From the IMG/VR virus record IMGVR_UViG_3300020171_000001, positions 93,288-157,287 of that record: 64,000 nucleotides of DNA; one strand, 5' to 3'. Shown piece by piece: positions 4,120-51,451 of this stretch. Source of the stretch: a virus. The notes beneath the pieces were generated by a model. The model was not told the origin of the DNA and searched no databases. It worked only from the letters and a program-made list of their open reading frames with translations. The first letter of the stretch is position 1. Every line of letters starts with the position of its first letter. A program made the position numbers and the translations under genes.

Positions 4120-4605
4120 ATGGCGACCCAGGCACGATCGCGGGAACTGGCAGCCCAGGCGTTCTTCTACATCTTCGATATGGACGGGAACCTGTCCGGG
4201 AAGGTGCGATCGGTCACCGGGGGTGACATCACTTTCGAGATCGCAACGAACCGCGAGGGCGGATCTATCTTCCCCCAGAAGATGGCCACAATCGCGGACA
4301 CCGGTGAGGTCACGCTCCAGCGCGCTGTGCTCCCTTCGGATTCCTCCTTCTACGACTGGCTGCTGGACCAGGCCGATGTTCTGGCAGACATGCCCGTGGG
4401 CTCCGGTCTGCGTGATCCGGACACCCTGCGGGATATCGTCATCGTTGGCGAAGCCCGAGACCGCACGCGCATTCTGCAGTGGACCCTGCACGGCTGCTCG
4501 GTGGCTGGCTACCCCATGTTCCAGTTCGACAACATGGGCGGGGATCTGCTCATCGAGGAACTCCGGATCGTCTATGAATGGCCCGAGGTCGATTTTCTCG
4601 GGTAA
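4120..4605 (+). CDS. Tail tube protein (gp19-like)
   Basis: The 161-aa product matches the size and strand-rich pattern of myovirus tail tube proteins. It begins with a region that includes FFYIFDMDGNLSGKVRSVTGGDITFEIATN and closes with LIEELRIVYEWPEVDF, the typical C-terminal strand of the T4 gp19-like family. It polymerises into the inner tube around the tape measure. GGAG precedes the ATG. Its position directly after the sheath gene supports the call. No further gene follows for 234 bases, so this may be the end of a strongly expressed sheath-tube transcript. Confidence 0.88.
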   Translation: MATQARSRELAAQAFFYIFDMDGNLSGKVRSVTGGDITFEIATNREGGSIFPQKMATIADTGEVTLQRAVLPSDSSFYDWLLDQADVLADMPVGSGLRDPDTLRDIVIVGEARDRTRILQWTLHGCSVAGYPMFQFDNMGGDLLIEELRIVYEWPEVDFLG

Positions 4606-29024: not shown

Positions 29025-29402
29025 TTACTTGACGAGGATTGTCTGCCGGAAGTCATCGCCGAAGACTCCCCGCAGGGCTACGAACAGCGGCTTGTTGATG
29101 ATGTCAGCCACAGGCTTCTCGTGCTGCGTCTCCCCGAGTTCTCGGGGCAGGCGAAGGCCCTTCTCGGCCATGCTCGCGAGCAACCGGGAGATCCCGCGGG
29201 GTGTGAGGTCGCCGGCGTCGTTCATGCGTTTCAAGAAATGCGCGGGGATCGCCACCTGCTGCATCACCGCTTCAGCGGTTTCAGCAGTTTGGGGCACTCC
29301 GTCTTTCTCGAAGGTGAAGCGGTACCGTGTCTCGACCAGGATCTCCAGGCACTTCTCTCCGACGGCGCTGACAAAGCCACTCTGTCGCTCTTTCTCAAGC
29401 AT
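29025..29402 (-). CDS. Hypothetical protein
   Basis: A 125-aa protein (MLEKERQSGFVSAVGEKCLEIL) with GGAGG seven bases before the ATG. It has a helical C-terminal part (LTPRGISRLLASMAEKGLRLP, then IINKPLFVALRGVFGDDFRQTILV). The start overlaps the stop of a 33-residue gene. The product is not recognised. Confidence 0.6.
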   Translation of the reverse strand: MLEKERQSGFVSAVGEKCLEILVETRYRFTFEKDGVPQTAETAEAVMQQVAIPAHFLKRMNDAGDLTPRGISRLLASMAEKGLRLPRELGETQHEKPVADIINKPLFVALRGVFGDDFRQTILVK

Positions 29403-29496
29403 TGGCTGCCTCCAATTGGCGATGGATTTCCATGGCCAGTACGAATGCGTGGCCCATGACCTTCGTCTCGCAAGCCACAACGTCTTCGTAGGTCAT
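29395..29496 (-). CDS. 33-residue hypothetical protein
   Basis: ATG ACC TAC GAA GAC begins a reading frame of 33 codons (MTYEDVVACETKVMGHAFVL, then AMEIHRQLEAANA) that ends by overlapping the next start. The sequence is typical amphipathic helix, and the frame fills what would otherwise be a gap in a tightly packed operon. No Shine-Dalgarno is evident, so the start could be the upstream TTG. Confidence 0.4.
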   Translation of the reverse strand: MTYEDVVACETKVMGHAFVLAMEIHRQLEAANA

Positions 29497-29518
29497 GCCC
29501 AAGCACCGAGCGATCCGG

Positions 29519-29797
29519 TCATGTCAAAATCCCCCCGCGGGCGATGAACATGAGCGGAAACCCGTTAGCATGCGCTGGCATCAGGATCACGAGCGCTGTC
29601 CCATCAGGGAGACCCGCGATCATGTCCTTGCGCTGCTCTGAGAGCACTCGCCGCGTGTCTTCCACCACATCCAACGTCAGGTCGTGCATCTCGAAGTACG
29701 ACTCAGAGACCCCGAGCCAGCGCCCGCGCTGCCCCGTTTCGCCCGTAGCGAACAGGTGGATCTCCATCTTGCAACAGGCGCCCTGCGCGATGATCAT
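29519..29797 (-). CDS. Hypothetical protein coupled to the DUF1848 gene
   Basis: A 92-aa protein whose ATG overlaps the upstream stop (ATGA). MIIAQGACCKMEIHLFATGE is followed by the helix YFEMHDLTLDVVEDTRRVLSEQRKDMIA and a strand segment (GTALVILMPAHANGFPLMFIA). The family is unknown. It is tightly coupled to the DUF1848-like gene. Confidence 0.55.
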   Translation of the reverse strand: MIIAQGACCKMEIHLFATGETGQRGRWLGVSESYFEMHDLTLDVVEDTRRVLSEQRKDMIAGLPDGTALVILMPAHANGFPLMFIARGGILT

Positions 29798-34495: not shown

Positions 34496-36585
34496 GCGTT
34501 CTCCGTTGGGAAGACCTGCCACAGGATCACTCGGTCTTCGTTGTCTTGCACGATGACGGCCCAGCCCTTTCCAGGGCAATACCCGAGGCCGGCGAGCGTG
34601 TCCTCGTCCAGACTCTCGAGACACGCCAGTGCTTCCGGCGGCGCGCCGTGCAACGCCCATTGCTCGGCCGGGACAAGAGGGAAGTCGGTAAGCGGATCCA
34701 CGAGTTCTTCAGTCGGCTCACCCACGGGCACAGGGCCATTCGCGAGTATGGGCGCGTCGCGCACATCACCAGATTCACCAGTGGGACCAGCATGCCCAGT
34801 GGACTCGTCGGCAGACTCAGGGGCCAAGGCCATTCCGGCTTCCCCCATTCCGGGTGCTACAAACGGATCCAGCACTTGAAGATGCTGGATTATGCCGTCC
34901 CAGAGAGCCCCTGCATCCTGCAACAGAGCTGTGTCACCTGCGAGGTCACGTCCTACAGCTTCGTCAGGGCCCAGTCCAAGAACATCGGAGACATCCGATT
35001 CCTTTTCTATGATGCGCTGCAGGATGCGCTCGTCGACTGGGTTGCCGTCCAAGAAAAGGTAGACGGACTCCTTCTCTGTTTCTACGTTGTCGCCCTCAGA
35101 GAGAAGACGGCCTTCTACCTGCAGGTTGGTATCAGGATTCCAGAACGGTGTGACCATCAGCGCAGCCGTGGCTGTCCGCAGGCTGTGGTTGGACACGCCA
35201 ATGCTCCCGGCCGTGCCTACAAGGATCGCATGGTCATAGTCCCCGAGCGCTGCACACACGGCCCAGCGCTTGGCCACCAGCATGCCTCCGTCTACGGGCC
35301 CGAGAATCGACACGGTCTCTGGGGCCGTCTCCCGGAGTTCAGCGGTTAGGACCTTGGCGCTCTCCCGGCGCTCGGTGAAGACGATGACTCGAGCGTGCTG
35401 CGTGGCAAGGGACAAGGCCTCGCGGGCTGCATGACGCACCTTCACAGAGGCCATGGCCGTGATAGCGTGGGTCAACGCGACCAACTTCTCCGGGTATTTC
35501 TGCGTCGACTCTGCACCCGCGCCATTGGCGTTCAGGGAGAGCCGAAAGCCCCCCAGGTTCACGCGGATCTTGGGGTTCTTTGCTTGTCGGGCCTGCGCGG
35601 CTTTGCGCCCGGCGGAAAGGATGGCTTCCTGCAACTCACTGCGCTCAGATCCTGTGAGTACAAGGCGCTTGGCTGTTCGACGGACTCGCGTACCGCCCAA
35701 CGCTGCTGCCGTGCCACGACTGACCTTTAGCGTGCAGCTGTTGATCCGCGCCCGGAGTTCCGCCGTGTTTGTGGCGCCCGTGGGCCGCCAATACACCTGG
35801 CCACCGCGTGACCGGTTCTGCTCGAGCCCCACGTACCGCACTGAGAACTCGTGGGCTGTCCCCCACTGGCCAGGTTGCATACAGTCGAGCTGGGACCAGA
35901 GGTTTTGGCGACCCGTTCGAATCGGCGTCGCCGTCAGCCCGATTCGATAGCGCACCGAAGCCATACCGCTGAGGGCCCGCGACGCGCGGGTGCGCTGCGC
36001 CGCAGGGTTCGCGATGCAGTGGGACTCATCGAAGATAATAACGTAGGGGTGCTGCCCATGGGGCAGTCGCCCGATATCCAGTGTGTTGTCATCCAGGACC
36101 TCGTAGTGCACGAAGGTCCATGTGTTTCCGGGGAGCGACGTGGTAGCTTTTCGCTGGTCCCACGGCACAACGCGGAGGTCGAAGCACCGCGCCGGATCGC
36201 TATTCGGGGCGCACCAAGTATCAAGGGCTTGGAGCGGTCCGACGATCATCCCGGGCTGACCCAGCAAACCCATGCGCCAGATGGCCTGGAGCGACAAAAA
36301 GGTCTTCCCCATGCCGGGCTGGGCATAATAGCTGCAGCCATTGGCTTGGAATCCCAGCGCGTCCAACCCATGGCTGTGGAGAGCTTCAGTCATGAACGAC
36401 ACAGCACGTCGCTGGTACCCCTTGAGTCGGTAGTGCCCGAATGGCGTACGGTCTACGGGGTCTTCGGGGTAGTCCAGAATGCTGCGAAGCGGCATGGTGA
36501 GATCCAGGCAGTTCACCGGGATGCTCTCTCCTCCGCGTGTGACGCGATAGGGTCCGACAATTTTGATTAGCGATTCCAACGCCAA
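34492..36585 (-). CDS. SF2 (SNF2/DEAH-type) helicase or translocase
   Basis: A 697-aa protein with SF2 motifs: YRLKGYQRRAV (Q-motif region), AQPGMGKTFLSLQAI (Walker A), VIIFDESHCIAN (Walker B, DESH), RIGLTATPIRTG (motif III), and in domain 2 VIVFTERRESAKVLT, AILVGTAGSIGVSNHSL, and LQVEGRLLSEGDN (motif VI-like). Phage SNF2-type proteins handle replication forks or transcription. The C-terminal 170 residues are an acidic, Pro-rich extension. The start is TTG; the alternative TTG 6 bases further in has AAAGG spaced well. It heads the leftward operon, and the Sak4 gene is coupled at its end. Confidence 0.8.
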   Translation of the reverse strand: MALESLIKIVGPYRVTRGGESIPVNCLDLTMPLRSILDYPEDPVDRTPFGHYRLKGYQRRAVSFMTEALHSHGLDALGFQANGCSYYAQPGMGKTFLSLQAIWRMGLLGQPGMIVGPLQALDTWCAPNSDPARCFDLRVVPWDQRKATTSLPGNTWTFVHYEVLDDNTLDIGRLPHGQHPYVIIFDESHCIANPAAQRTRASRALSGMASVRYRIGLTATPIRTGRQNLWSQLDCMQPGQWGTAHEFSVRYVGLEQNRSRGGQVYWRPTGATNTAELRARINSCTLKVSRGTAAALGGTRVRRTAKRLVLTGSERSELQEAILSAGRKAAQARQAKNPKIRVNLGGFRLSLNANGAGAESTQKYPEKLVALTHAITAMASVKVRHAAREALSLATQHARVIVFTERRESAKVLTAELRETAPETVSILGPVDGGMLVAKRWAVCAALGDYDHAILVGTAGSIGVSNHSLRTATAALMVTPFWNPDTNLQVEGRLLSEGDNVETEKESVYLFLDGNPVDERILQRIIEKESDVSDVLGLGPDEAVGRDLAGDTALLQDAGALWDGIIQHLQVLDPFVAPGMGEAGMALAPESADESTGHAGPTGESGDVRDAPILANGPVPVGEPTEELVDPLTDFPLVPAEQWALHGAPPEALACLESLDEDTLAGLGYCPGKGWAVIVQDNEDRVILWQVFPTENA

Positions 36586-36788
36586 CCTTTGTAGCCTCCG
36601 GAGGCGCGTGCAGTCAATATCTTTTTCGATGGGTTACTCGAACGCTGCGGAATCCCACGGGAAAAATCGCGCAACAGGCATACACCAGACTATTCACTTG
36701 ACGCAGGCCGAACCGGGAAGTAGGCTCGCGCAGATATTTCGGCAGGCCGTGCAAGGCCTAATTTTGCTTTTCTGTGAGGAGCCGCGCC
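36586..36788. promoter_or_regulatory. Divergent intergenic region with a promoter for the RepA-like gene
   Basis: TTGACG (36698-36703), 17 bases, TAGGCT (36721-36726) form a rightward promoter about 60 bases before ATG 36789; TGAGGAG gives the Shine-Dalgarno. The left part (36600-36670) is relatively AT-rich and has TTGACT on the - strand (36617-36612). A matching -10 (TACAAA) would put transcription inside the first codons of the leftward helicase gene, so that promoter is doubtful. Confidence 0.5.
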
Positions 36789-37922
36789 ATGGAGATACAC
36801 GGTCTGACTTACCATTCCACACCAGAGATCATCAGCCTCGGCGACCCGCCCGAAGGCCGGTGGATTCTCAAGCCCCTAATTCCTGCGGTGGGAAAGACCA
36901 TCGTATTCGGCGCGCCGAACGACTACAAGACATTTACGATGCTGGATCTCTGCTTGGCCTATGGAAGCAATGGCTCGCTCTTCCAAGAACTTCCGTTGCA
37001 AAAACACGGGCGTGGGCTGTTCATCACGGTCGAGGGCGACGCCTATGACACACGGGATCGGCTCTCCATGCTCTTGCGCGGGCAAGCCAATCTGGACCCG
37101 GGGAAGATCGACCTGTTCTTCGGGCACGAGCCGATCTACCTCAACACGCCGCGTGGGATCCAGATCTTGGGCGAGGTGATCGGCGACATCAAGCCAGGGC
37201 TCGTGGTCCTTGATCCTTTGCGGCACTTCATCCCTGGCTGCGACGAGAACGATGCCACCCGCGTGAGCGCCGTCTGCGAGGGCCTCAACACGCTCCTGCG
37301 CACCCACCGGTTCTCTCTGGTGGTGATCCACCACGCGGGAAAGCGCGGGGATATGCGCGGGTCGTCGGCCTGGGATGGCTGGGCCGACAGCGAAATCCAG
37401 TTCATCGCGGCTCGCAATCAGATCTTGGAGGGGATGGGGGGCCCCTGCGACGTGATCACGATGCGCCAGCGCAAGGTCCGGAACGCGGGGTACTCCGATG
37501 ACTTCTTGCTCGTGCCCTTGATCGATGACAAGACCATGACGGCCTTCTACTCCATCATGGAGGGTCCCATACAGGGGGACACCCCGGTGGCTATCGATGG
37601 TGCTCAACGCATCCTCCACTGGTGGAACATCGAGGGATCCATCGGTGATTGCGCAGGTGGATTCGCCGTAGACAGCGCCCGGCGCGGAGCCAATATCTCG
37701 CCAGAGAAGGCCAAGGCCGGATTGCTGTTCCTGGAGCGCCGTGGGCGCGCCAAGCAGATCAAGATTCTTCGCAGACGCGGGGCCGACGGCTTCGGTAGTT
37801 TTCCCGGGTGGGTTATCGAGGCCTCGACAACAGATCATATCCGTGCGATGCTCTCCGTCATGAAACGGCATATGGCCGCCGACGAACCCCAGGTCGATTG
37901 GGCCGAGGAAGACACGGTGTAG
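36789..37922 (+). CDS. RepA-like AAA ATPase (hexameric helicase, AAA_25)
   Basis: A 377-aa protein opening MEIHGLTYHSTPEIISLGDP. The P-loop lies in TIVFGAPNDYKTFTML (residues 37-52, with K47 and T48), followed by GLFITVEGDAYDTRDRL, GLVVLDPLRHFIPG (Walker B) and FSLVVIHHAGKRGDMRGSSAWDGWADSEIQF, the sensor and arginine-finger-like segment. This layout matches the RSF1010 RepA/AAA_25 helicase family. It could be the replicative helicase, encoded divergently from the replication operon. An ATG upstream (GTG 36774) lacks support; 36789 has TGAGGAG seven bases before. Confidence 0.8.
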   Translation: MEIHGLTYHSTPEIISLGDPPEGRWILKPLIPAVGKTIVFGAPNDYKTFTMLDLCLAYGSNGSLFQELPLQKHGRGLFITVEGDAYDTRDRLSMLLRGQANLDPGKIDLFFGHEPIYLNTPRGIQILGEVIGDIKPGLVVLDPLRHFIPGCDENDATRVSAVCEGLNTLLRTHRFSLVVIHHAGKRGDMRGSSAWDGWADSEIQFIAARNQILEGMGGPCDVITMRQRKVRNAGYSDDFLLVPLIDDKTMTAFYSIMEGPIQGDTPVAIDGAQRILHWWNIEGSIGDCAGGFAVDSARRGANISPEKAKAGLLFLERRGRAKQIKILRRRGADGFGSFPGWVIEASTTDHIRAMLSVMKRHMAADEPQVDWAEEDTV

Positions 37923-37927
37923 CACAC

Positions 37928-38197
37928 GTGCTGACCCTGGAAAGCGAAGTTGAGAGCGTCCTGGCCATGCTGTCCACGGACTGGTCCCTGCGTCAACTGT
38001 ACGAGCGTCTCGTGGGCGCCCTGGAAGACCGCGGTATCGTGCCAGGCGCACCAGTGCCTACAGACCGTGACTGGCTTGCTCTCGAGCTTGATGCCGGGGA
38101 GGGGCACATGCGGCCCCTGGCAACGCTCCTGTTCCGCGTGAGGGACTCGCAGCAAAGTTGCCCGCAGTGGGTCCGGCAGATCAAGTCGCGGTTCTAA
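37928..38197 (+). CDS. Small hypothetical protein downstream of the RepA-like ATPase
   Basis: An 89-aa product starting at GTG (LTLESEVESVLAML, DWSLRQLYERLVGALEDRGI, then MRPLATLLFRVRDSQQSCPQWVRQIKSRF). The sequence looks helical. GTG follows the previous stop by five bases. It could be a helicase accessory or loader, unproven. The frame can be extended upstream but only as a shadow of the ATPase gene. Confidence 0.5.
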   Translation: MLTLESEVESVLAMLSTDWSLRQLYERLVGALEDRGIVPGAPVPTDRDWLALELDAGEGHMRPLATLLFRVRDSQQSCPQWVRQIKSRF

Positions 38198-38377: not shown

Positions 38378-38571
38378 GCGCCAACGAAGGCCCACCCAAA
38401 CCCTCCCCTACGAGACTTACATATGTGAGACACTTTAGCTGGTCTGCGGTAGTGAGACTCGCAACCTGTGGGGCTACCGAGTGGCAGTTTGCGAACTCTT
38501 TCGCGTCTGCAAGCGTGCTCCTGCGGGGTTCGGCAGAGCCCCGATTTTGGCCGGTGGGGGGGCCCTCGCTC

Positions 38572-38653
38572 TATACGGAAACAGCAAAAGTGAACAAATC
38601 TCGACTTATCCACAGGTATTTCTGAATGATTCCGAGACGTTCGAGATTTTCGT
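38572..38653 (+). repeat. Left copy of the 82-bp inverted repeat with a DnaA box (origin-like)
   Basis: This 82-bp element recurs in inverted orientation at 45646-45727 with 79 matches; the first 60 bases are identical. It contains the E. coli-type DnaA box TTATCCACA at 38606-38614. The box lies within a pair of arms AAATCTCGA (38596-38604) and TCGAGATTT (38641-38649). A diverged further homology includes TTGAGATTTTTGC (38709-38721), spaced almost the same in the other copy. Origin, regulatory or recombination function is inferred, not shown. Confidence 0.8.
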
Positions 38654-38685
38654 GCGGATCTGTCACACTGTCCCGTGACCACGAA

Positions 38686-41600
38686 TTAGTCCTGTGATTC
38701 CGGATAGCTTGAGATTTTTGCCAGAAGTCGCCAGAAGGGCGAGTCGCGGCAGGACTCGAGCCGTTTGGCCCGCGTCACGATTAGCCGATCTTTCGCCCGG
38801 CTGACTGCCACGTAAAGGATGCGCAGCTCCTCCTCGGCCAGAACCGGGTCTTGTCTCACGCGGCCGCTCGGGAAGACCCCGTACGAGACATTGGCCAGGA
38901 CCACGACAGGGGCTTCCAGGCCCTTCATGCCGTGGCACGTTGCCAGCGTCAGCCGCTCGGTGTCCCCCGCGGCCATGGCCGCTGCGTCGCGCTGCTTCTG
39001 GATGTTGTGCAGGCCCCGAAGGTACTCCACGTGCGTCAGGAGCTCCGTGGCCGTCTCGAAACCCGCGGCGTACTCCAGCAGCTCCTCCAGGACGATGGAC
39101 GCCCCCTCGTCCTCCGAGGCGCTCGACAGGCCCATCTCCTCGGCCATGTGGTCTTCGTACTCGATGACGTCCACGAGCCAGCGCAGGGCCTCGGCCGGCG
39201 CGCGGCCAGCTCGATCCTGTAGTTTGTCCAGGATGTCCCGGAACCGCACGATGCTGCGCCGCTGCGGGTACGCCAGGCTTCCGTGCTCCAGTAAGTCAGA
39301 GAGCAGGTCTCCTGTAGCTCGGCCGGCGGCCTGGGCCTCCGCGACGCCCCGGAAGGCCTTGGCACCGATGTACCGGAAGGGCACGTTGACGATGGCCCGG
39401 AGGCTCGAGCCGTCCGGATCAGCGCCCGTGGCCACTCGCAGGTAGTTGAGCAGGTCTCGGGCCTCCCTGGTGTCAAACAGGAAGCCTCCAGCCAACTTGC
39501 GAAACGGGATGCCCTGCTTTGTGCAGAGGATGGATAGCCAATGCAAGATCCCCGCTGTCCGGGACAGCACCGCGGTGCGCCCGAGGCCTTCCTCCCGTGC
39601 CACCGCGAGGCAGAACTCCAGTTCTTCGCGTCGTCCTGGAAAGCTCCGCATCTCGATTGGCGCTCCAGGCACTCCGCGGATTGGCCGAATGGCACCGGTG
39701 AGATTCCACGGGCGACCCTCAATGACGCGCGAAGCCGTCTCGCAGATGCGGTCCGTCGACCGGTAGTTGTTGGGCAGCGTGTAGACTACTGGCTTGTACT
39801 CGTGCATGAACTGGAGGATCTGCGCGGGGTCTGCCGTGCGCCAGCTGTACAGTGAGTTGTGGACGCAGATCCCGTTGGCATAGTAGCTCGTGGTCTTCGC
39901 CACCTGCAGATCTGCCAGGACCTTCAGGGCGTCGTAGCGCTCCAGGCGGACCACCTCGCGGGTGCAACCCTCCTGCGTCCAGACCTGGCAACCCGGGACG
40001 AGCGAGCCCAGAGGGATTGCCACGATCTTCTCCTTGTTAGGCCCCTGAGCCGCGCTGAGAGCCACTCGAACCGTGCAGTCGATCTCCTCGCAGCGCAGCT
40101 TCACGGCCCTTGAGATGCGAAGGGCCAGATCATGGGCCTCGGCCCCGGAAGACACCTTGACTCGAATAACCCCGGTTCCCCTGCGGCCCTCTCTGGGTGT
40201 GATGCCGAAGTCGCGGAGCAGGGCCTCCCGAACGGCAGGCTGCTGCAAGATCTGGGACTCGCAGACCACCTCCGAGGCATCGTGCTTGTCTCCTCTCGAG
40301 AGGATGACGGAGAGCACAAGGCGATTCGTGACGTAGGTCTGCGGCATGAACGTCGGCCAGTCGAACAGGAGACGGAACGCGGTCAAAACCCTGCGACCGT
40401 TGTCACCGAACTCAGCAAACATCCTGGAGATCTCCTCTTCTCGGACTCGAAGTCCCCGGCCGTAGCGATTGAAGGGCATCGTGGGTACTTGGTAGAGCAA
40501 GGAGAGCCTTGATTCTTCGTAGCCGGCGCTTGCAGACGTCTCGTGGGCGTTAAGGAGCCAGAGCCTGTCCGCGTTTTCGTTCAGAGCGCGAGCGGCTACC
40601 GAGTGCCGCGTCTTGTTCTTTGCCCCCTGGGTTACTCCCAAGCGGAATCCCATGCCCTTGCGATACATCAGGTAGGTATAGAAGCGATCGTTGCTGGCAG
40701 GCATGCACGCGAACACGAGGTGGTCGTTGGAGCCGTCGAGGGCTCGACCGTCTTCCAGGGTGATCCGCGCGTGGTGCATCTTGGTCTGCTGCCCCACATG
40801 CTCTACTACCTGAGGGACGGGCCAGCCCTTGGCGCAGGAGAGAACCTGCATGCCTTGTCGCACCGACCCGAGCACTATGGTTGCATCCTCCGGTCCAGGC
40901 AAAGAGACTTCGGTGCTGTCTGGGTCCAGGCACTGTGCCAGGTCGCTGCACAGCATCAGGTTGTGATCGCGGTCGGTCCCCGGTGCTCCGGAGATAGCAT
41001 CTGGTAGGCCCACGGCCAGCCTCGCGATGGAATGCTGGATGCTGGACGAGTCCTGAGCTTCGTCCACGATGACCACGGACCATTGGGATGCCCACCAGCC
41101 CTGAAGTTCCTGGCTACCCGCCAAGGATTGCCAGAGCCAGCCCTGCGCATCGTCATAGCCGTAGAGACCCAGCTCCCATCTGCGTTCCTCGACTTCGCGG
41201 AAGAACGTGAAGGCGTCTTCCGCCGACATCCCAATGCGTTGGCTAAGCCAGGCTTCTGCAACGTCCATCACGTTCTGTCTTGAGGCTGCCTCGGAGACCT
41301 GAAACGGGTTGCCATGTACATGGAACGGCCCCAGGTTCTTGCACCTGGAGATGAACGTCTCAAGAACCCGGACATCGAGGGCATCCGAGACCTGGATGGC
41401 GCCCTGCCGCCGAAGACGCTTGGCCACGATCTTCATGTGGTAGGGCAACGCACCGCGCTCATCGAAGGCAACTTGCCGCATGCCCTCGGGCCAGATCTTC
41501 TTGATCCGGTGGAAGCACAATGAATGGAAGGTTCGAACCTCCACGCCGGGAACCCCAGCAGACTCCAGTCGGTGCAGGACTTCGCCGCAGGCCGCCCGGG

Positions 41601-41802
41601 TGAAGGTGAGCACCAGAATGTGCTCGGGGCGTACACCGGCGCGCACCAGACGGATGACCCGTGACACCACCGAGCGCGACTTCCCCGAGCCCGGAGCACC
41701 TGCCACGAGCGACGGTCCTAGCCCATGGTCGCGCACAGCCGTCTGGTGCTCGTCGAGCTGGAAAGCAGACGCAGGTTGCGGTTGTAAATTCAGGCTTGAC
41801 AT
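38686..41802 (-). CDS. UvrD/PcrA-type SF1 helicase interrupted by an intein
   Basis: A 1038-aa precursor; the extein is about 679 aa. SF1A motifs: LVAGAPGSGKSRSVV (Walker A, residues 33-47), HILVLTFTRAACGEV (Ia), VVIVDEAQD (motif II, 243-251), then the interrupted DLAQ/SLYSWR (motif III), YTLPNNYRSTDRI (motif IV), LATCHGMKGLEAPVVVL (motif V) and LYVAVSRAKDRLIVTR (motif VI). It should unwind DNA ends or flaps. The intein sits between Gln 290 and Ser 650. Start MSSLNLQPQ is chosen for AAGGAGG upstream; the longer frame to 41946 has no such site. It pairs with the nuclease gene upstream like AddAB or RecBCD components. Confidence 0.85.
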   Translation of the reverse strand: MSSLNLQPQPASAFQLDEHQTAVRDHGLGPSLVAGAPGSGKSRSVVSRVIRLVRAGVRPEHILVLTFTRAACGEVLHRLESAGVPGVEVRTFHSLCFHRIKKIWPEGMRQVAFDERGALPYHMKIVAKRLRRQGAIQVSDALDVRVLETFISRCKNLGPFHVHGNPFQVSEAASRQNVMDVAEAWLSQRIGMSAEDAFTFFREVEERRWELGLYGYDDAQGWLWQSLAGSQELQGWWASQWSVVIVDEAQDSSSIQHSIARLAVGLPDAISGAPGTDRDHNLMLCSDLAQCLDPDSTEVSLPGPEDATIVLGSVRQGMQVLSCAKGWPVPQVVEHVGQQTKMHHARITLEDGRALDGSNDHLVFACMPASNDRFYTYLMYRKGMGFRLGVTQGAKNKTRHSVAARALNENADRLWLLNAHETSASAGYEESRLSLLYQVPTMPFNRYGRGLRVREEEISRMFAEFGDNGRRVLTAFRLLFDWPTFMPQTYVTNRLVLSVILSRGDKHDASEVVCESQILQQPAVREALLRDFGITPREGRRGTGVIRVKVSSGAEAHDLALRISRAVKLRCEEIDCTVRVALSAAQGPNKEKIVAIPLGSLVPGCQVWTQEGCTREVVRLERYDALKVLADLQVAKTTSYYANGICVHNSLYSWRTADPAQILQFMHEYKPVVYTLPNNYRSTDRICETASRVIEGRPWNLTGAIRPIRGVPGAPIEMRSFPGRREELEFCLAVAREEGLGRTAVLSRTAGILHWLSILCTKQGIPFRKLAGGFLFDTREARDLLNYLRVATGADPDGSSLRAIVNVPFRYIGAKAFRGVAEAQAAGRATGDLLSDLLEHGSLAYPQRRSIVRFRDILDKLQDRAGRAPAEALRWLVDVIEYEDHMAEEMGLSSASEDEGASIVLEELLEYAAGFETATELLTHVEYLRGLHNIQKQRDAAAMAAGDTERLTLATCHGMKGLEAPVVVLANVSYGVFPSGRVRQDPVLAEEELRILYVAVSRAKDRLIVTRAKRLESCRDSPFWRLLAKISSYPESQD
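39856..40932 (-). other. Intein in the UvrD-like helicase, GIY-YIG-like insert
   Basis: A 359-aa intein. Block A: CLDPDSTEVSLPGPEDATIV; block B: DGSNDHLVFACM; blocks F/G end VAKTTSYYANGICVHN before +1 Ser. No LAGLIDADG helices are visible. Instead, FYTYLMYRKGMGFRLGVTQG, then ARALNENADRLWLLNA and EESRLSLLYQVPTM follow the GIY, YIG, Arg and Glu order of GIY-YIG nucleases. Insertion at the Q/S of motif III abolishes the helicase until splicing. The endonuclease assignment is an inference. Confidence 0.8.
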
Positions 41803-41899
41803 GGTCCTCCTTGCTAGCATACAATGTCGGATAAGGGGAGATCTGTCTAAAGCGTGGTTGCATGCCTTGCAGGTTAGAGGCTGTCTGCAAAGGCCCGGA
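41803..41899. other. Gap between the Cas4-like nuclease gene and the helicase start
   Basis: No gene is evident. Close to the helicase start, the - strand holds an extended -10-like TTGTATGCT followed by CAAGGAGG, so a weak separate promoter is possible; no matching -35 is obvious. Confidence 0.3.
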
Positions 41900-44218
41900 T
41901 CATGACGGTTCGCTTGCCGCAGTTTCCCCCGTGCCCCCGATCTCAAAGAGATGCTTCAGCATAGCATCCACGATGGACTTCTGGGACACGGCGGCCCATT
42001 TCGGGTTGGGCCCCTCGTAGGCGACAATGGGCGACTTGGGCCGTCCGCTCTCCGTGTCCCCGCCCAGCAGGACATAGAGTAGGCCTGCCTCGCCGTCCGT
42101 GTTCGGTTTCTCTTTCGACCCGATAGCTTCGTGCACCAGCAAGGCCTTCAAGATGCCCGTAGCTGCACGCCGGGCAATGGCCTCGTCCACGCCCTGACCT
42201 GCGTCGCCCCGGAAGAGTTGTTCCACGAAGTCCTCCTCGGGCTCGTTGAACCAGTCGGGGAAGCGCACGCCGCGTTCCTCGGCTATGCCCGGATTGCTCA
42301 TGGTCTGAAACAGCTCACGGAACGACTGAAGCAGAATGCGCCCCAGGGTCTCAGCCCCCTGAGCTTTCAGGGCAGCCGTCGACGCAGCAGCCGGAGCAGG
42401 GGCAAGAGCATCTCCATGTGTGCTTGCCGGCCCGCTCTGGCCCGACAAGGCTGTTGATGCCTTGGTCACCTTCTCGAGGTACGGCGCGCCCTTCTGGAGA
42501 ACTCGCACTTGCCGGTGTTCCTGTTCTTCGTACCGGTCTTCCACGCCGCGCACCGAGTCAAAGTGCCGGGAGCACAGGTCGAAGTAGTCACAGCGGCCCC
42601 AACGCCCCACGCAGTTGGGCGTGCACCGGGGCCACGCGAGGTCAACAGGGGGCAAGTCCTTGCCGCGTTCCCAGGCAACAAGGCCGCGGAGGAGGTCAGT
42701 TGCAGCGGGGACCAGCATGTACTCCCAGGTGTTCCGCACATCGCGAAGGTCTATCGGTGATTCAACACGGACAATGCCCCTGTCTGGGTCCACAGCTTTG
42801 ACGCCGCCGACGTGCACATCGGGCTTCACGCCGATGGTCACCATGGTGGAGGCAAGCTCAGGCTTCGGCTCGCCAGCGATACCGCTCATGCCACCGCCCA
42901 TGACGTAGAGACCGGCGTAGCCCATGAGCTGAAAATCCAGGCCGAAGCCCTCGGTCAGCTCTCGAGTCAGCATGGAAGCCGTCTTCTCGTCGTGGACGAT
43001 CGCTTTGCCCTCGGAGGTCCGGCGCACATCGTCGAGTCGGCCACAGAGCCGTATGCGGAACGAGCCGGTCTTGCCCGGGATCTTGACCGGCGCGGACACA
43101 GCCTCCATCCGGATTTCCGAGGTGATCACGTTGCTCGACGGGCCGTAGTCGAGGTAGCCATACCGCTTGAGTCTGGCACGCAGGACGGCGCGAGCCACAG
43201 ACATCTCCTCGCCGAGTACGCCTGCGCCGGCGTGCTCTTCAACGAATGCCAGCGGGTCATCCGCACGGTCGAGTCCGTAGGTCTTCGCGAAGTGGAGTGC
43301 CGCGTGGTACAGCGTTCCAATCTGGAAGTGCGGGCGAGGAAACCGAGACCGGATGCCTCTGACGTGCGCCAGGTACACACGCCGGCGGCACTGGAGCCAG
43401 TCGATGAGGATGTGCACGTTCACACCCCATGACAGAGATGAGCCCCCCTGCATTCCGGGCATCGTGGACAGGATCTCGGAGACATCCGGCTTCTTCAGCA
43501 CGATGGGCTCAGCACCTCCCGTGATGGACATCAGGAGGTCTTCGAACGTCCCCTTGCTTGCCGTCTGACCGAGTTGCTGTTGGCCAGTGCCAGAAGCCGC
43601 CGTAGGTGCGGCCGCGGCGACGGTGGCAGCGGCCGCCAGTTCTGCGGCGGCTTCGCTGCGCGCCAGGTCCTGCCGGCTCTGCGGCGCCACACCGAGGTCA
43701 CTGGCCATGACCCATTCCGGTGCCTGGGCCCACGGGAGCTGCGTGTAGTAGGCTACCTGCCCGTCAGGGTAGACGTGCTGGCGCTGCACCGTGATGGGCG
43801 GCAGCGCCAGGTCCTCTGGCTGATACCACGTGCTGTTGGCCAGAAGCACAACGGACCCATCCTCGTACATGTGCGTGTGTGTCACATCTGCCGGAGTCCC
43901 GGTGCCGGTTACGGCCGGGCCACGGTACGCCATACGCGCGGCCACGGGCATGGCAGAGAACGGAATGGTCACCAAGAGCACCTCCGAAGCAGCCTCTGGG
44001 CCGCCCACGGCCAATGCTTGACCGTGCATCCGGTGGTATCCTGAGCAGCTTTGCTCCTCGTTGAAGTACTTGTGGCAGTAGCGCTGCACGGTATCGATGC
44101 TCATGCCAATGAGACCCCCTCCGCATGGCAGGAGTTCGATGGTGATACCCGCGACGGGGTTCACACGCACGATCTTGTTGCAGGGGGGCAAATGCGCTCC
44201 CACGTCTTGCTGACTCAT
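41900..44218 (-). CDS. PD-(D/E)XK nuclease with Cas4/AddB-type Fe-S cysteines
   Basis: A 772-aa protein. The nuclease core has GRLDD (393-397), IVHDEKTAS (D410, E411, K412), FQLMGYAGLY (QxxxY) and TSEIRM (E368), the RecB/Cas4 order. Cysteines for a 4Fe-4S cluster are C277 (LIDWLQCRR) and C532/C536, C543, C549 (WPRCTPNCVGRWGRCDYFDLC). The first 270 residues are an unfamiliar domain ending in an Ala-rich linker, and a C-terminal 200-residue domain follows another low-complexity linker. It probably acts with the UvrD helicase encoded next to it as an end-resection complex. The ATG overlaps the upstream stop (ATGA). Confidence 0.75.
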   Translation of the reverse strand: MSQQDVGAHLPPCNKIVRVNPVAGITIELLPCGGGLIGMSIDTVQRYCHKYFNEEQSCSGYHRMHGQALAVGGPEAASEVLLVTIPFSAMPVAARMAYRGPAVTGTGTPADVTHTHMYEDGSVVLLANSTWYQPEDLALPPITVQRQHVYPDGQVAYYTQLPWAQAPEWVMASDLGVAPQSRQDLARSEAAAELAAAATVAAAAPTAASGTGQQQLGQTASKGTFEDLLMSITGGAEPIVLKKPDVSEILSTMPGMQGGSSLSWGVNVHILIDWLQCRRRVYLAHVRGIRSRFPRPHFQIGTLYHAALHFAKTYGLDRADDPLAFVEEHAGAGVLGEEMSVARAVLRARLKRYGYLDYGPSSNVITSEIRMEAVSAPVKIPGKTGSFRIRLCGRLDDVRRTSEGKAIVHDEKTASMLTRELTEGFGLDFQLMGYAGLYVMGGGMSGIAGEPKPELASTMVTIGVKPDVHVGGVKAVDPDRGIVRVESPIDLRDVRNTWEYMLVPAATDLLRGLVAWERGKDLPPVDLAWPRCTPNCVGRWGRCDYFDLCSRHFDSVRGVEDRYEEQEHRQVRVLQKGAPYLEKVTKASTALSGQSGPASTHGDALAPAPAAASTAALKAQGAETLGRILLQSFRELFQTMSNPGIAEERGVRFPDWFNEPEEDFVEQLFRGDAGQGVDEAIARRAATGILKALLVHEAIGSKEKPNTDGEAGLLYVLLGGDTESGRPKSPIVAYEGPNPKWAAVSQKSIVDAMLKHLFEIGGTGETAASEPS

Positions 44219-44628
44219 GGCTCCCGACTCCTGTCTTTTGAGCCCTGGGGGCTCCCAGTGAGCGCCTTCGCGCGGTAGTTATCTCGGGCCCGGCGCTGCG
44301 CTTTGGCCCGGTACACCGGATCAGTGTTGTACCGATTGCGCTGGGCATCGGTGATGCTTGGCTTGTTGGCCTTGCGGTACCCCCGGGCTCGTTGGGCGTC
44401 GGCGCTCCGCGAGCATTCTTTGCACCGCGGGCGAAAACCATCCTTGGCAGCAGCCATGCGATGGTAGAACTCGTGCGTGCGGGGCTTGTCCTCGCCGCAA
44501 CTCAAACAAGTCTTGCGGGCGACAAGCGCCCCCGAGTCGCTGGGAATCACGGAGGTATTGGCACCGCCCGCGCGTTCTTCGTCCGTGCGCTCGGCATGAC
44601 CGGGGCTCTCTGCTCTCTTATTCTTCAT
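44215..44628 (-). CDS. Zinc-finger protein, endonuclease VII/HNH-like N-terminal module
   Basis: A 137-aa protein. KTCLSCGEDKPRTHEFYHRM and DGFRPRCKECSR form a CxxC...CxxC zinc site of the kind that begins recombination endonuclease VII and many phage HNH proteins. After it comes a basic tail (RARGYRKANKPSI, then RRARDNYRAKAL) but no clear catalytic HNH set. It may be a DNA-binding or junction-recognition factor. The start follows AAGGA, with a promoter 20 bases further upstream. Its stop couples to the nuclease gene. Confidence 0.6.
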   Translation of the reverse strand: MKNKRAESPGHAERTDEERAGGANTSVIPSDSGALVARKTCLSCGEDKPRTHEFYHRMAAAKDGFRPRCKECSRSADAQRARGYRKANKPSITDAQRNRYNTDPVYRAKAQRRARDNYRAKALTGSPQGSKDRSREP

Positions 44629-44645
44629 CGTTTGTTTGTCCTTGG

Positions 44646-44675
44646 ATAGTGGCGGAGACCTCGGTGCTCTGTCAA
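44646..44675 (-). promoter_or_regulatory. Leftward promoter of the zinc-finger/nuclease/helicase genes
   Basis: On the - strand TTGACA (44675-44670), an 18-base spacer and CACTAT (44651-44646) precede AAGGA and the ATG at 44628. Just upstream lie two tandem TGACAGG words with a 9-base period (44684-44698 on the + strand), matching the promoter near 4.79 kb. A repressor or activator site is a good possibility. Confidence 0.5.
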
Positions 44676-44700
44676 CCCTAAAATGACAGGCATGACAGGT

Positions 44701-45522
44701 TCACTGGGCCATCCACCACTGCGTCATCCACCGGGTTCCAAACCAGAGCGCGAGCCCAGCCACAGTGAGGGACAGCAAGAGCCAGATGCACCCGGTGTAT
44801 CGGGGTAGGCCCACCGGCAGCTCCTCTGCCTGCGTCTGCCCATGGTCTGGGGCAGGTACACCCCGTGGGCCCCGTGGGCCCCTTGGGCCCCGCGGCGGGT
44901 CGTAGCCGGCTGTTGCAAGCGCGGCCAGCTGCCGAGCACGGTGCGGGCCTGGCGGGACCAGGATCTCGAAACGGGATTTGCCAGCGGGCCTCCGGGCCCC
45001 GCGGCCGCCAGACTGGGCCACGGTGACCGGCGCACCCACTGTCGGGTCGAGGATGACCCAGGAGACAGCCGGGATGTCGACTCCTGTGTTCCAGATGCGT
45101 GTGGCGACCACAGCATGCACTGAGCCCGGTTGACTGGCGATGCGTGCGGCCAAGTCTGCTCGTTCGGCCACCGTAGTGGTTTGCCCGCTAACAGCGACAA
45201 TACGCTCGACTCCAGGCAGTACGGGCAGCAGCGTCTTGGGGCCCGAGTCTGCGTTACCCGAGGTCGGGGCTGAGGACAGAGACTGTTCCGGTGCCAGTGC
45301 CCAGTCCGGCCGGAGTATCGCGACCCGGGCGCGGAGCGCCGTCGTGAGTTTGTGCATCGCAGCAATCGACGGGACTAGGACGAGCCCCGGGCCGCGGCGA
45401 ATGTCCAGGATCCGGGCCAGGGCTTTGTCTACGATCCAGGCTTCGGTGGGGTCCAGTTCCATGCCAGATTCCTGCCCATCGAATACCGCGCCTGTCCAGT
45501 CCACCTGCAGCGCATGAGACAT
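44701..45522 (-). CDS. SF2 helicase C-terminal (RecA2) domain with a C-terminal membrane helix
   Basis: A 273-aa protein with only the second helicase domain: GLVLVPSIAAMHKLTTALR (motif IV region), AVVATRIWNTGVDIPAVSWVILDP (motif V) and VAQSGGRGARRPAGK (motif VI, QxxGRxxR). After it come three GPR repeats in a collagen-like linker, then a hydrophobic segment GCIWLLLSLTVAGLALWFG at about 243-262, likely a membrane anchor. AGGGGG precedes ATG 45522, the chosen start (an ATG 36 bases upstream has none). The matching RecA1 domain is encoded 437 bases upstream. A full helicase needs both. Confidence 0.7.
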   Translation of the reverse strand: MSHALQVDWTGAVFDGQESGMELDPTEAWIVDKALARILDIRRGPGLVLVPSIAAMHKLTTALRARVAILRPDWALAPEQSLSSAPTSGNADSGPKTLLPVLPGVERIVAVSGQTTTVAERADLAARIASQPGSVHAVVATRIWNTGVDIPAVSWVILDPTVGAPVTVAQSGGRGARRPAGKSRFEILVPPGPHRARQLAALATAGYDPPRGPRGPRGPRGVPAPDHGQTQAEELPVGLPRYTGCIWLLLSLTVAGLALWFGTRWMTQWWMAQ

Positions 45523-45542
45523 ATGGCGTGCCCCCTTGTAGC

Positions 45543-45962
45543 TCACGGGTTGATCCATGGGGTTTGCGCGATCAGCAAAAATCTCAATCGATGTGCAATA
45601 TCGTTGAGGAATTCGCGGCAGATCGGCCTATATTTCGTGTTTTCGACAAAAATCTCGAACGTCTCAAAATCATTCAGAAATACCTGTGGATAAGTCGAGA
45701 TTTGTTCACTTTTGCTGTTTCCGTATAAGGCCGGGGCATCTTTTTGGCCATCATCGGGGCCTCTTTGCAAGGGATTGAAGGCCTGAGTAGGGCCCTGTCT
45801 CACGCCATGCGTGAGACACATGAGACATACCCCAGCGTGGTCTGGCGAACTGCAGAAGTTCTCGGTTCTGGCTGCGCTACACCGGCCGATTGGCGCATGC
45901 ACGGAGCACAGCAAATGCCCACGCGCGTCTGCTTCCACGCGCTTGTGCATGTGCACACTCAC
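45543..45962 (-). CDS. Bridging frame between the two helicase halves (uncertain)
   Basis: A 139-codon frame that starts inside the RecA1 stop (GTGA) and ends inside the RecA2 region. The repeat at 45646-45727 is read as ALYGNSKSEQISTYPQVFLN with FETFEIFV after it, and the left copy reads the same in its own frame, which is intriguing. The rest (for example HLLCSVHAPIGRCSAART) is compositionally noisy. It may be a real small protein, or this DNA may be an inserted non-coding element. No motif is recognised. Confidence 0.3.
   Translation of the reverse strand: MSVHMHKRVEADARGHLLCSVHAPIGRCSAARTENFCSSPDHAGVCLMCLTHGVRQGPTQAFNPLQRGPDDGQKDAPALYGNSKSEQISTYPQVFLNDFETFEIFVENTKYRPICREFLNDIAHRLRFLLIAQTPWINP
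45646..45727 (-). repeat. Right copy of the 82-bp inverted repeat with a DnaA box
   Basis: The inverse of the copy at 38572-38653, identical over 60 bases and 79 of 82 overall. The DnaA box (TGTGGATAA on +) is at 45685-45693. Flanking sequence homology continues: TTGAGATTTTTGC on the - strand at 45587-45575, and ATCGGGGC-type matches at about 45753. It lies exactly between the RecA1 and RecA2 helicase genes. Confidence 0.8.
45796..45818. promoter_or_regulatory. Perfect dyad next to the right repeat
   Basis: TGTCTCACGC and GCGTGAGACA form perfect 10-base arms around a CAT spacer, with a second GAGAC word nearby. GAGAC words also occur near the left repeat. It is a candidate operator or cruciform site between the helicase halves. 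Confidence 0.45.
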
Positions 45963-47059
45963 GCCCCTGTCTCAGCAAAGCCCGAGCCTGAGTCCCGCTC
46001 CACGTCCACGATGCAACCGCCAGACAGGAATCCGGCATCGACCAGCGCCGGCATGGATGCCTGCGCCGGCGTACGAAGTACAGGCCCGGTCAGCGCCACC
46101 ACAGACATGTTTCGCCCGTCCTGCCGACCGGCTGGAGTTGCCGACAGCCCGATGACCATCTGAGCGCGTTGGATGCCCCGCGTGACCCATGCCATGCGCT
46201 GTTCCCCGCCGAGAGTGTGGCACTCGTCAATGAGGACTCCCGTCCAGCCCCCCGGGGGCTCGTCGCCAATCCCCCCGTAGGATACGCAATGCAGCCAGTC
46301 CCAGCCACAGCCACAGTCGCCGATGCCTGTGCCGGCTTCTGCATCAGCTCCGGTGCCCGCCGCCAACTGCAACCGCGGAAGTGCCCTGTGGAGCACCCGG
46401 GCAGTCTGCCGAGCCAGCTCAGCGTTCGGCGCAATGTAAAGCCAGCGCCCGCCCAGAACTCGACGGCCTACCGCCAGAATCGCGGCAGCAACCCACGTCT
46501 TGCCGGCACCGCAGCTGGCAGACAGGATCCCGCGCCCGAAGGGCGCCGAGAAGGCTGACCAGGCCAGATCTGCCTGGTAGGGACGCAATGGAGCATCGGG
46601 GACCGACGCCAGCCTCAAAAGCGCCTGGCGCAGTTCCCACGCGCGTTCTCGGGTCAAGCAACTGGCAACCTGGGGCCCGCCGGCAACACGCAGTACAGGG
46701 CAAATGCGGTCTGTTGATGCCCATGTGAACGCCGAGGACGGAGACACAGCATGGGCCATCCAGGCGACCAAGCCCATGGGCATCGTCTGGTCTGCCGAGC
46801 CCAACCCGGCAGTCCACAGCATGCCCTCCAGGGACTCTTGACATGCCCAGCGCAAGGCTCGCAAGGCCCCGGGTCGCGAAGCAGCACGACCGCGGCTATC
46901 GCGTGCGAGGCGAGACAACCCGCCAGGTGTACGGACTTCTGCATCGCACGCCAGGCGCAGCCAGGTCTCGTAAAACGATTGAGAATCAGGCCCCTCGCAG
47001 ACCCGTGCTCGGGCGTCTCCAAGGCGCATGATTTCCAAACTCACGTAGCGGGTAGACAT
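45959..47059 (-). CDS. SF2 helicase N-terminal (RecA1) domain, truncated
   Basis: A 366-aa protein with helicase motifs of one RecA domain only: LRPYQADLAWSAFS (Q-motif-like), ILSASCGAGKTWVAA (Walker A, 182-188), WLYIAPNAELARQTARV (Ia), VLIDECHTLGGEQ (DECH at 278-281) and MVIGLSATPAG (motif III, 302-311). It ends 55 residues later, where an intact UvsW-like helicase would continue into domain 2. The stop overlaps a bridging GTG (GTGA). The missing second domain is encoded separately downstream, beyond the repeat. Confidence 0.75.
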   Translation of the reverse strand: MSTRYVSLEIMRLGDARARVCEGPDSQSFYETWLRLACDAEVRTPGGLSRLARDSRGRAASRPGALRALRWACQESLEGMLWTAGLGSADQTMPMGLVAWMAHAVSPSSAFTWASTDRICPVLRVAGGPQVASCLTRERAWELRQALLRLASVPDAPLRPYQADLAWSAFSAPFGRGILSASCGAGKTWVAAAILAVGRRVLGGRWLYIAPNAELARQTARVLHRALPRLQLAAGTGADAEAGTGIGDCGCGWDWLHCVSYGGIGDEPPGGWTGVLIDECHTLGGEQRMAWVTRGIQRAQMVIGLSATPAGRQDGRNMSVVALTGPVLRTPAQASMPALVDAGFLSGGCIVDVERDSGSGFAETGA

Positions 47060-49048: not shown

Positions 49049-51451
49049 ATGCCCGAGTCCGACAGTAAGCCGCCGCGGCAGCAAGCCACGTTCTGGCGCC
49101 GAGAGATGCAGTACCGGAAGGGCCAGGCCGATGCAGCGACCCGGCAAATCCTGGCGCCGCCCGCCGAGCACCGGCTGCTCATGCCCCTCGATGTGATCCC
49201 CAAAGGCGCCACGGCCCCGTCGGCCGATCAGGACTACCTGAAAGACGTTCTGGCTGCGGCTCTGGACATGGAACGGCGTATCGAGGCCGCGCGTCTGTCT
49301 CCACTGGCTCTGATGCAGCTCTGCTTCCGTGCGCCCAACGGCAGTCCGCTCTTCGAAGCTCCGTTCTACAGGGAGTGGGATGAAGCAATTCTCGGCAATC
49401 CCAAGGTGCTCATCGAGGCCGCAAGGGGGACAGGAAAATCGATGTTCATCCTGGCCGCCATCCTCTGGGCCATAGGGAGCGACGTCAACATCCGCATCAA
49501 GCTCGTCGGGGAGAACGACAAGGTTGCGAACAAGCGGCTCTCGGTGCTCCACACCATCCTGGACAACAAGGAGCACATCTATCACAAGATCTTCCCGAAT
49601 GCGAAGAAGACCTCCAGGGGCTCCAAGCGCAAGAACAACGCCAGCCAGATCAACATCGAGAGAGACCTGGATTCGCCGGACCCCACGGTCGAAGCCGTCG
49701 GCGTGACATCCGCGGGCACAGGGAGCCGCGCTGATATTCTTGTCGGTGACGACCTCGTCGGCGCTGCCAACGCCCTGGTCCAACCGGCGAAGCGCACCAT
49801 GATCTTGGAGAAGATCCAAAACGACTGGCTCCCCTCTGTGGTCCCGGAGGGGCTTTGCTGGTTCATCTTTACCGTGTGGACCGAAAACGATGCGTCGAGC
49901 TGGCTCATCGCCAACACGGGCTGGCCCCACATCAAGCACGCGCACGGCACACCGCAGGACCCGTATCACTCGGCCTTTCCGGAGCTCTGGTCGTCGGCTG
50001 TTCTGCGGCGGAAACGGCGGGAGATCGGCGAGGTGGCCTACGCCCGAGCATACCTGTTGCGCCCGCACACCAAGGAGACCGTGGTCGTGCTCCCAGAGCA
50101 CATTCGGACGTGGGACCGCCGGCGTCTTCCACCGGAGAAGATCATCCGGGCGCACATCATCGTGGTAGCCGACCCGGCCTCGGGCAAGGAACTCAAGAAG
50201 GGGTCTCTCGACCCCTCGGGGCTGGCCGTCCTCGCCTACGTCCCCAAGCTCTTGCCAGAAGACACGCAGCAGACACAGCGGTCCCCGGCCGACGGCGGGG
50301 CGCATCTGGGAAGCGCCAACCCGCAAGACCTGCAGGACCTCGATGACGCGAGCATCACTGACCTGGAAGCCGACCCCGATCAGGCCCTCGATGGTCTGCC
50401 ACTCGATGCCCGCGGCGCCAGCAGCGCAGGCACACCTGATTCCCCGGCCATGTTCAATGCCCTCGCTGACCTCGACATCGCCAACATCTATTGGACTGGG
50501 CGCGGCGTCCCCTTCGAGATCTTTGTCATCGAGGCCCTGGAACATTACCTCCCAATGGGGCAGGAACAGGCCGACTTCCTGTGGTGGGTCGCTACGCAGT
50601 TCAATGCCCACTCCATCCTGTGCGAAGCGCAAGGGCTGGCCGACCTCCACCGCTGGATGGAGAACGAGCGGCTGAACTACGCCGGGAAGGTCCTGGGCCG
50701 GGCACCGACCTCGCACGATGAAATCGCACGGTTGTTCGGCCACCGCGGACTCGGGGCCCAGATCCAACCCTTTGGGACCGGCAACATGTCCAAGGGCGAA
50801 CGCCTCATGTCCATCACGCCCTTCCTCAATCTCCCGGCCAATGAGCCGCCAGCCGTGTTCTTCCGGCCGAACACCGTTGAGACGTTCCCCGAGCCCAAGC
50901 TCCTCGTGCATCCGCGCCTCGGCTCCGTCGAGGTTTCGAGGACACTCCGTGAACAGTTCCTGAGCTTTCCAGCCCGCCATGATGACATCCTCGACTGTGT
51001 CACCGCCGGCGTCCTCTGGATCGTGGAGAACCTGGCTCCACGCGACGCCCATGGTGTCTTCCAAGTCGATTCCGAGGCCTCGCGTGGGCTTCAGCACACG
51101 TCCTTCTTCGTGGCGGGCCCCTCGGAGAACCAGGGCTGGGGCCAGAGCCATGGCCAGAACCGCTCACGTCGCGGGGCCCCACTCGACATCGACCCGCAGG
51201 CCCACAACCGTCCGGACCTGGACCACGTCGTCAGCATCAACGCCACCCTCGCCCCAGCCAGCGCTCCAGCCAGCGCTCCAGCATCGGCTGTTCCAACTCT
51301 CCCGTCCCAGGCACCATTCAGTTCAAGCCCGGACTCGTGTCAGCCGGACACCCAGACTTCCAGGGACGGCCGAGGACGCATCATCGGGCACCCCGACGAC
51401 CCGGAGCCCGGCTGGCAAAGCGTCCGCACGTCCAACCGAGATCCTTGGTAG
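49049..51451 (+). CDS. Terminase large subunit (packaging ATPase and nuclease)
   Basis: An 800-aa protein. ATPase motifs: VLIEAARGTGKSMFILA (Walker A, K130) and DILVGDDLV (Walker B region), then FIFTVWTEND (coupling-motif region). Nuclease domain: IIVVADPASGKE (first Asp), and RHDDILDCVTAGVLW with the final catalytic Asp pair near residue 645. An acidic low-complexity insertion of roughly 65 residues (about 410-475) lies inside the nuclease domain, and a Pro/Ala/Ser-rich tail with three APAS repeats ends the protein. It packages phage DNA into the prohead. Length is above the usual 450-650 aa because of these two additions. Confidence 0.88.
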   Translation: MPESDSKPPRQQATFWRREMQYRKGQADAATRQILAPPAEHRLLMPLDVIPKGATAPSADQDYLKDVLAAALDMERRIEAARLSPLALMQLCFRAPNGSPLFEAPFYREWDEAILGNPKVLIEAARGTGKSMFILAAILWAIGSDVNIRIKLVGENDKVANKRLSVLHTILDNKEHIYHKIFPNAKKTSRGSKRKNNASQINIERDLDSPDPTVEAVGVTSAGTGSRADILVGDDLVGAANALVQPAKRTMILEKIQNDWLPSVVPEGLCWFIFTVWTENDASSWLIANTGWPHIKHAHGTPQDPYHSAFPELWSSAVLRRKRREIGEVAYARAYLLRPHTKETVVVLPEHIRTWDRRRLPPEKIIRAHIIVVADPASGKELKKGSLDPSGLAVLAYVPKLLPEDTQQTQRSPADGGAHLGSANPQDLQDLDDASITDLEADPDQALDGLPLDARGASSAGTPDSPAMFNALADLDIANIYWTGRGVPFEIFVIEALEHYLPMGQEQADFLWWVATQFNAHSILCEAQGLADLHRWMENERLNYAGKVLGRAPTSHDEIARLFGHRGLGAQIQPFGTGNMSKGERLMSITPFLNLPANEPPAVFFRPNTVETFPEPKLLVHPRLGSVEVSRTLREQFLSFPARHDDILDCVTAGVLWIVENLAPRDAHGVFQVDSEASRGLQHTSFFVAGPSENQGWGQSHGQNRSRRGAPLDIDPQAHNRPDLDHVVSINATLAPASAPASAPASAVPTLPSQAPFSSSPDSCQPDTQTSRDGRGRIIGHPDDPEPGWQSVRTSNRDPW

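Follow-up and report, generated by a model that had tools for sequence, protein, structure and literature searches.

Two inverted elements around a helicase–nuclease module

The window analyzed here, a stretch of 64,000 nucleotides, forms the last 64 kb of IMG/VR virus record IMGVR_UViG_3300020171_000001, which is 157,287 bases long. It carries a pair of inverted repeats, here called elements A and B, that bracket a 7-kb block of helicase and nuclease genes next to the gene for a RepA-like helicase. The two ends of the record share 127 bp, which makes the map either circular or circularly permuted, with a length of ≈157,160 bp. Besides a sheath-like tail gene, the genome has genes for a topoisomerase, a family A-type DNA polymerase and a processivity factor for a polymerase; genes beyond the window were called with a simple codon-usage script. 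Positions are those of the window unless the genome or another sequence is named.

The core copies of A (38572–38653, plus strand) and B (45646–45727, minus strand, in mirror orientation) are identical at 79 of 82 bases (blastn, 96.3% over 82), as had been reported in an earlier reading made from the letters of the window (the sequence-only reading). Gapped alignment widened the homology to 38535–38721 and 45575–45764, about 190 bp of patchier similarity that includes TTGAGATTTTTGC, in agreement with the more diverged homology that had been noted on both sides. The nearly equal spacing described there was also right: TTGAGATTT lies 68 bases past TCGAGATTT in A and 71 bases past it in B.

The perfect DnaA boxes claimed for the two copies are real. 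Each copy holds one exact TTATCCACA, at 38606–38614 (plus strand) in A, where the core reads TTATCCACAGGT, and at 45685–45693 (minus strand) in B. The sequence occurs nowhere else in the whole genome, and 0.11 copies were expected in the window by shuffling; since both boxes share one duplicated element, they amount to about one independent event.

The DnaA box is accompanied by copies of a 9-base arm motif, TYGAGATTT. One pair of 9-base arms per copy had been recognized before and a third copy overlooked: there are three per element, one of them inverted. Relative to the first base of the DnaA box, they start at −10 (inverted), +35 (direct) and either +103 in A or +106 in B (direct). In A, the −10 box (38596–38604, minus strand) reads AAATCTCGA on the plus strand, equal to the inverted TCGAGATTT, and abuts the DnaA box; the middle box, TCGAGATTT, is at 38641–38649 and the distal box, TTGAGATTT, at 38709–38717, both on the plus strand. 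The boxes of B are at 45695–45703 (plus strand, inverted relative to B), 45650–45658 (TCGAGATTT, minus strand) and 45579–45587 (TTGAGATTT, minus strand). The window thus holds six copies versus 0.34 expected; none of 100 shuffles gave six, and the remainder of the ≈157-kb genome contains no exact copy.

Both elements are AT-rich. The stretch at B (45629–45728) has 34% G+C, compared with 64.5% for the genome, and shares the genome-wide minimum for 100-bp windows; the lowest such window at A (38570–38669) has 42%. Three features of a DnaA-dependent iteron origin were found together: repeated boxes confined to the site, a conserved DnaA box and an AT-rich region.

The genes of the module run in the order Sak4-like protein, SNF2 helicase, RepA-like AAA_25 helicase (36774–37922, plus strand; PF13481, 1.1e-21, with PHROG primase/helicase matches) and an 89-residue open reading frame (ORF; 37928–38197, plus strand) just 5′ of A. 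From A onward, all on the minus strand, follow a UvrD-family helicase (38686–41946; PF00580 and PF13361; phrog_1967, 3.6e-65), a PHROG exonuclease-family protein (41900–44218; phrog_1218, 8.4e-08), a small HNH/endonuclease VII-like endonuclease (44215–44628; phrog_2340, 7.7e-09) and, inside the bracket, the C-terminal half of an SF2 helicase, SF2-C (44701–45558; PF00271, 7.4e-06; phrog_16 positions 478–589). B comes next, and the N-terminal half of the SF2 helicase lies outside the bracket (45959–47059, minus strand; PF04851, 2.8e-09; phrog_16 positions 268–448). These Pfam and PHROG matches bore out the helicase–nuclease module that had been proposed between the copies.

The elements thus sit in a replication module beside the sole replicative-helicase candidate seen, the RepA-like protein, and its conserved small partner. 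No match to the DnaB family (PF03796) was found in the genome, nor a phage-encoded DnaA domain IV. The predicted structure of the 89-residue partner is helical, with low confidence and no fold match, and the model of the RepA-like helicase was too poor for use; our guess is that the partner might be a helicase loader.

The corresponding pair in a related virus

A query with the RepA-like helicase identified one related virus, represented by two overlapping assemblies, which is circular and closes to ≈114,027 bp. Its proteins are well diverged from those described above (49% identity for RepA, 59% for the polymerase, 40% for the exonuclease and 39% for the 89-residue partner); its gene order and the split of its SF2 helicase match those seen here. 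Queries of IMG/VR with the exonuclease, RepA and the polymerase returned the same virus plus a fragment (L035), and no third lineage was found in IMG/VR or in the GTDB genomes searched.

The relative has a pair of its own at both homologous places, again in mirror orientation: A′ at about 6461–6682 of L015 (plus strand) and B′ at about 15495–15276 (minus strand). Both read TTTCTGTAAATGTAACCTTTGTCCACAGGTTT, then AAGGTTACATT at equal distance, and then AAGGTAAC. The DnaA-type core TTRTCCACAGGT is common to A, B, A′ and B′; the part that is unchanged between the viruses reads TTATCCACAGGT here and TTGTCCACAGGT in the relative, whereas the DNA that separates the boxes has diverged. The arms differ altogether from those of the window copies, being AATGTAACCTT/AAGGTTACATT, with TGTAAATGTAACCTTTGTCCACAGGTTT ... 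AAGGTTACATT at both homologous places, and AATGTAACCTT occurs in the 114 kb of the relative exactly four times, always within A′ or B′. Despite the different arm sequences, the left arm is at −10 in all four elements and the distal arm at +103, +106, +103 and +103 in A, B, A′ and B′, respectively. Gene placement matches as well, with the distal box of A falling within the final codons of UvrD and that of B ≈20 nt 5′ of the SF2-C start codon in both viruses. In G+C content the elements fall within the lowest 0.4% of 100-bp windows of either genome.

The sequence-only reading had held that absence from close relatives would speak against a functional element. Instead, the core, geometry, positions and mirror orientation recur, which fits replication sites. 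The arms are the same within each virus and wholly different between the two, having been re-matched in each, while their position, number and spacing, as well as the place, orientation and AT-richness of the elements, are preserved. Gene conversion by itself does not account for this pattern, since it would yield continuous identity, whereas the identity here is spaced. Because the arms match within a virus, differ between viruses and keep their spacing, the simplest reading is that, next to a DnaA site, they would be bound by a protein that is particular to each virus and has changed its sequence specificity. A candidate place for the gene of such a protein is the slot between the exonuclease and SF2-C. 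This slot is occupied by unrelated small genes in the two viruses, HNH-like here (44215–44628) and possibly helix-turn-helix in the relative (L015 14002–14418, weak hits).

The SF2 helicase is divided between its RecA-like domains into two genes separated by a gap of ≈400 bp. The gap is not a recent insertion, since the gene is interrupted at the same point in the relative, where an element of that virus occupies the gap. A group I intron was considered as the cause of the split at B and rejected, there being no Rfam match.

Possible starting or stopping of replication forks at the pair

We read A and B, tentatively and with rather less than even confidence, as paired mirror-image origin-type replication elements resembling oriL and oriR of the Bacillus phage SPP1. 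A virus-encoded, sequence-specific protein would bind the inverted box that abuts the DnaA site and the distal box 103–106 bp on, and in this virus the additional box at +35, while the one conserved box, TTRTCCACAGGT, would be bound by host DnaA. Between the boxes, the AT-rich DNA might then open and load the neighboring RepA-family helicase, perhaps with the help of the 89-residue partner. With two such sites flanking the recombination genes, the copies might divide the labor as in SPP1: one would fire to start theta replication, and the other, when bound by protein, would halt a fork and bring about a recombination-dependent switch to concatemers.

SPP1 has two origins 12–13 kb apart, with repeats and an AT-rich DNA unwinding element, and the proposed role of its second site, when bound, is to stall forks and set off recombination-dependent replication (PMC6316719, PMC3485210). 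A and B likewise are two sites that share repeats and AT-rich DNA. They differ in that the SPP1 sites are described with direct repeats, whereas A and B have one inverted arm and a built-in DnaA box and mirror each other around recombination genes. Nor was a homologue of SPP1 gp38 recognized here, although no search was directed at gp38, and the helicase is of the RepA type rather than the DnaB-family gp40. In the origins of iteron plasmids (P1, F, pSC101, R6K and RK2), an AT-rich region occurs together with initiator boxes and DnaA sites (PMC5043065). The same components stand together in A and B; however, the elements of these two viruses have two or three boxes per copy instead of a phased array, and they come as two inverted copies. 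In herpes simplex virus oriS, inverted initiator boxes surround an AT-rich spacer, and two inverted copies flank a unique segment. That layout is similar, but the replication system is another one, and A and B have much wider box spacing and a DnaA box.

Several observations weigh against an origin function. Conservation has been seen in two lineages, that is, with one relative, and the annotated phages contained no match to the element. Each element has only one DnaA site, and the box-binding protein is hypothetical. Among six comparator phages with RepA-like helicases, two have a DnaA box near repA and four do not. Finally, by the usual convention the cumulative GC-skew minimum marks the main bidirectional origin and the maximum the end of replication, and in both genomes it is the maximum that falls at or close to the pair, sharp in the relative and loose here, while the minimum carries another, iteron-like repeat array in both. 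The earlier proposal of paired replication origins stands insofar as the inverted duplicates, each with a genuine DnaA-type box, have counterparts in a relative, whereas the cumulative skew of the full genome, which had been suggested as a check, behaved opposite to what a main bidirectional origin would give. GC skew in phages is, however, indirect evidence.

The skew would instead suit a fork trap at the terminus, in which A and B would be two mirror-image polar barriers that admit forks without releasing them, while the repeat array close to the skew minimum would be the main origin (29.4–29.6 kb in this genome, 51.1–51.3 kb in the relative). This is a rival to be taken seriously, though we consider it rather unlikely. 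The GC-skew change points of the relative lie at 3.5–10.5 kb, a range that spans A′, and at 49–55 kb (2dLL about 290), and the cumulative maximum in this genome is a plateau near 116–132 kb, just before A. The skew minimum falls at the same syntenic divergent gene boundary in both genomes. When third-position skew is divided by gene strand, its sign still tracks the domain, strongly in the relative and weakly here. Mirror polarity is what a trap requires, and the replichore arms are unequal (≈102 and 48 kb here, ≈69 and 36 kb in the relative), so that without a trap the forks would meet elsewhere. On the other hand, the change points in this genome are weak, one at 31–40.5 kb and the other loosely placed at 107–143.5 kb (best 108 kb, near the antipode), those of T/A skew disagree with those of G/C skew, and the arrays at the skew minimum could be promoter operators. 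The Ter sites of the Tus–Ter system are single, short and asymmetric and lack DnaA boxes; A and B resemble them in forming a mirror-image pair near the GC-skew maximum, but known Ter sites have neither a DnaA box nor arms 113 bp apart. A phage-encoded trap, in which two mirror-image nucleoprotein sites that include the DnaA boxes would hold the forks of the unequal replichores at the recombination module, we consider unlikely; if true, termination and the switch to concatemer replication would both occur at that module. Origin-type elements are preferred over a fork trap, since neither DnaA boxes nor AT-rich spacers are known to play a part in fork traps. An SPP1-like site that both starts and stops replication would reconcile the two.

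The remaining explanations fare less well. A and B might be operator sites bound by a phage regulator, or by DnaA in that role, with B governing the SF2-C-to-UvrD operon and A governing antisense transcription or read-through at the 3′ end of that operon. The location of the distal boxes in both viruses, just ahead of SF2-C and in the 3′ end of UvrD, would suit this, but A sits between convergent 3′ ends, no convincing promoter or terminator was seen at either copy (counts were near the shuffled expectation), and the AT-rich spacer would be left unexplained, making operators quite improbable. Lower still is the probability that the elements act as single strands, RNA or single-stranded DNA, with the arms pairing to close a large hairpin, a weaker alternative to protein binding. 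It draws on the fact that the arms changed together between the viruses at about the same distance, that both elements are sense relative to the gene upstream, and that those of the relative fold better than shuffles (z = −3.2 and −3.0). The window copies do not (z = 0.0 and −1.2), the extra direct boxes would be superfluous for pairing, and an RNA element was rejected on the lack of a fold signal in these copies and of any Rfam family at the gathering threshold, sub-threshold matches being at chance level.

Recombination sites that invert the 7-kb block, as had also been suggested, or the ends of a mobile element seem highly improbable. Long, near-identical inverted repeats do face each other and enclose an HNH-type endonuclease gene. 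However, the block faces the same way in the two viruses and in each assembly of the relative, neither genome yielded a tyrosine recombinase, and the only serine recombinase belongs to an IS607-like transposon that is absent from the relative. An insertion into the SF2 gene ending at B would not leave the C-terminal half inside the bracket, adjoining B. A ParB/parS centromere was also rejected, with no PF02195 match in either genome.

Large uncultured phages hardly ever have their replication sites located. In this case, two diverged viruses have preserved positions and geometry while rewriting the arms, which offers a compact target for the question of whether a phage starts or stops forks at the pair and borrows host DnaA to do so. 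The pair could show how a phage ties its replication landmarks to its recombination genes.

Repeat arrays and inserts elsewhere in the genomes

The repeat arrays at the skew minimum differ between the two viruses. That of the relative (51074–51266; L017 11074–11266) consists of eight 18-bp palindromic repeats of the type TGTGAAC-N4-GTTCACA, near TGTGAACGATTGTTCACA, and is a candidate origin or operator array. In this genome, the very AT-rich region at 29381–29568 (genome coordinates; L005 9381–9568) holds inverted repeats and four CTAYGMAAA boxes within 190 bp, out of five in the whole genome. It adjoins an HNH gene fragment resembling IscB (L005 9000–9345; NCBIfam, 9.7e-15). The IS607-like transposon lies at 36119–38180 of the genome (L005 16119–18180), ≈95 kb away from the pair, and comprises a serine recombinase with a MerR-like start and a TnpB-like gene.

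DnaA boxes and similar patterns were also seen in other contigs. The only other viral contig with ATCTCGACTTATCCACAG is L003, a phage contig taken to be unrelated, which has several DnaA boxes in ≈140 bp (4441–4590) near a DnaB-type helicase gene. A match to the core pattern in L043 was dismissed: the phage is AT-rich and unrelated, and the match falls in coding sequence. In Manatee Spring phage MW202867 (L038 14552–14592), two perfect DnaA boxes lie ≈120–160 bp 3′ of repA.

Three genes carry intein-like inserts. In the UvrD gene (38686–41946) the insert lies between motifs, as judged by eye from the sequence, and one in the Sak4-like protein (32381–34495) was recognized in the same manner. 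The third is in the N-terminal half of the SF2 helicase of the relative (L015 15784–17838), where it matches Pfam Intein_splicing (6.2e-09).

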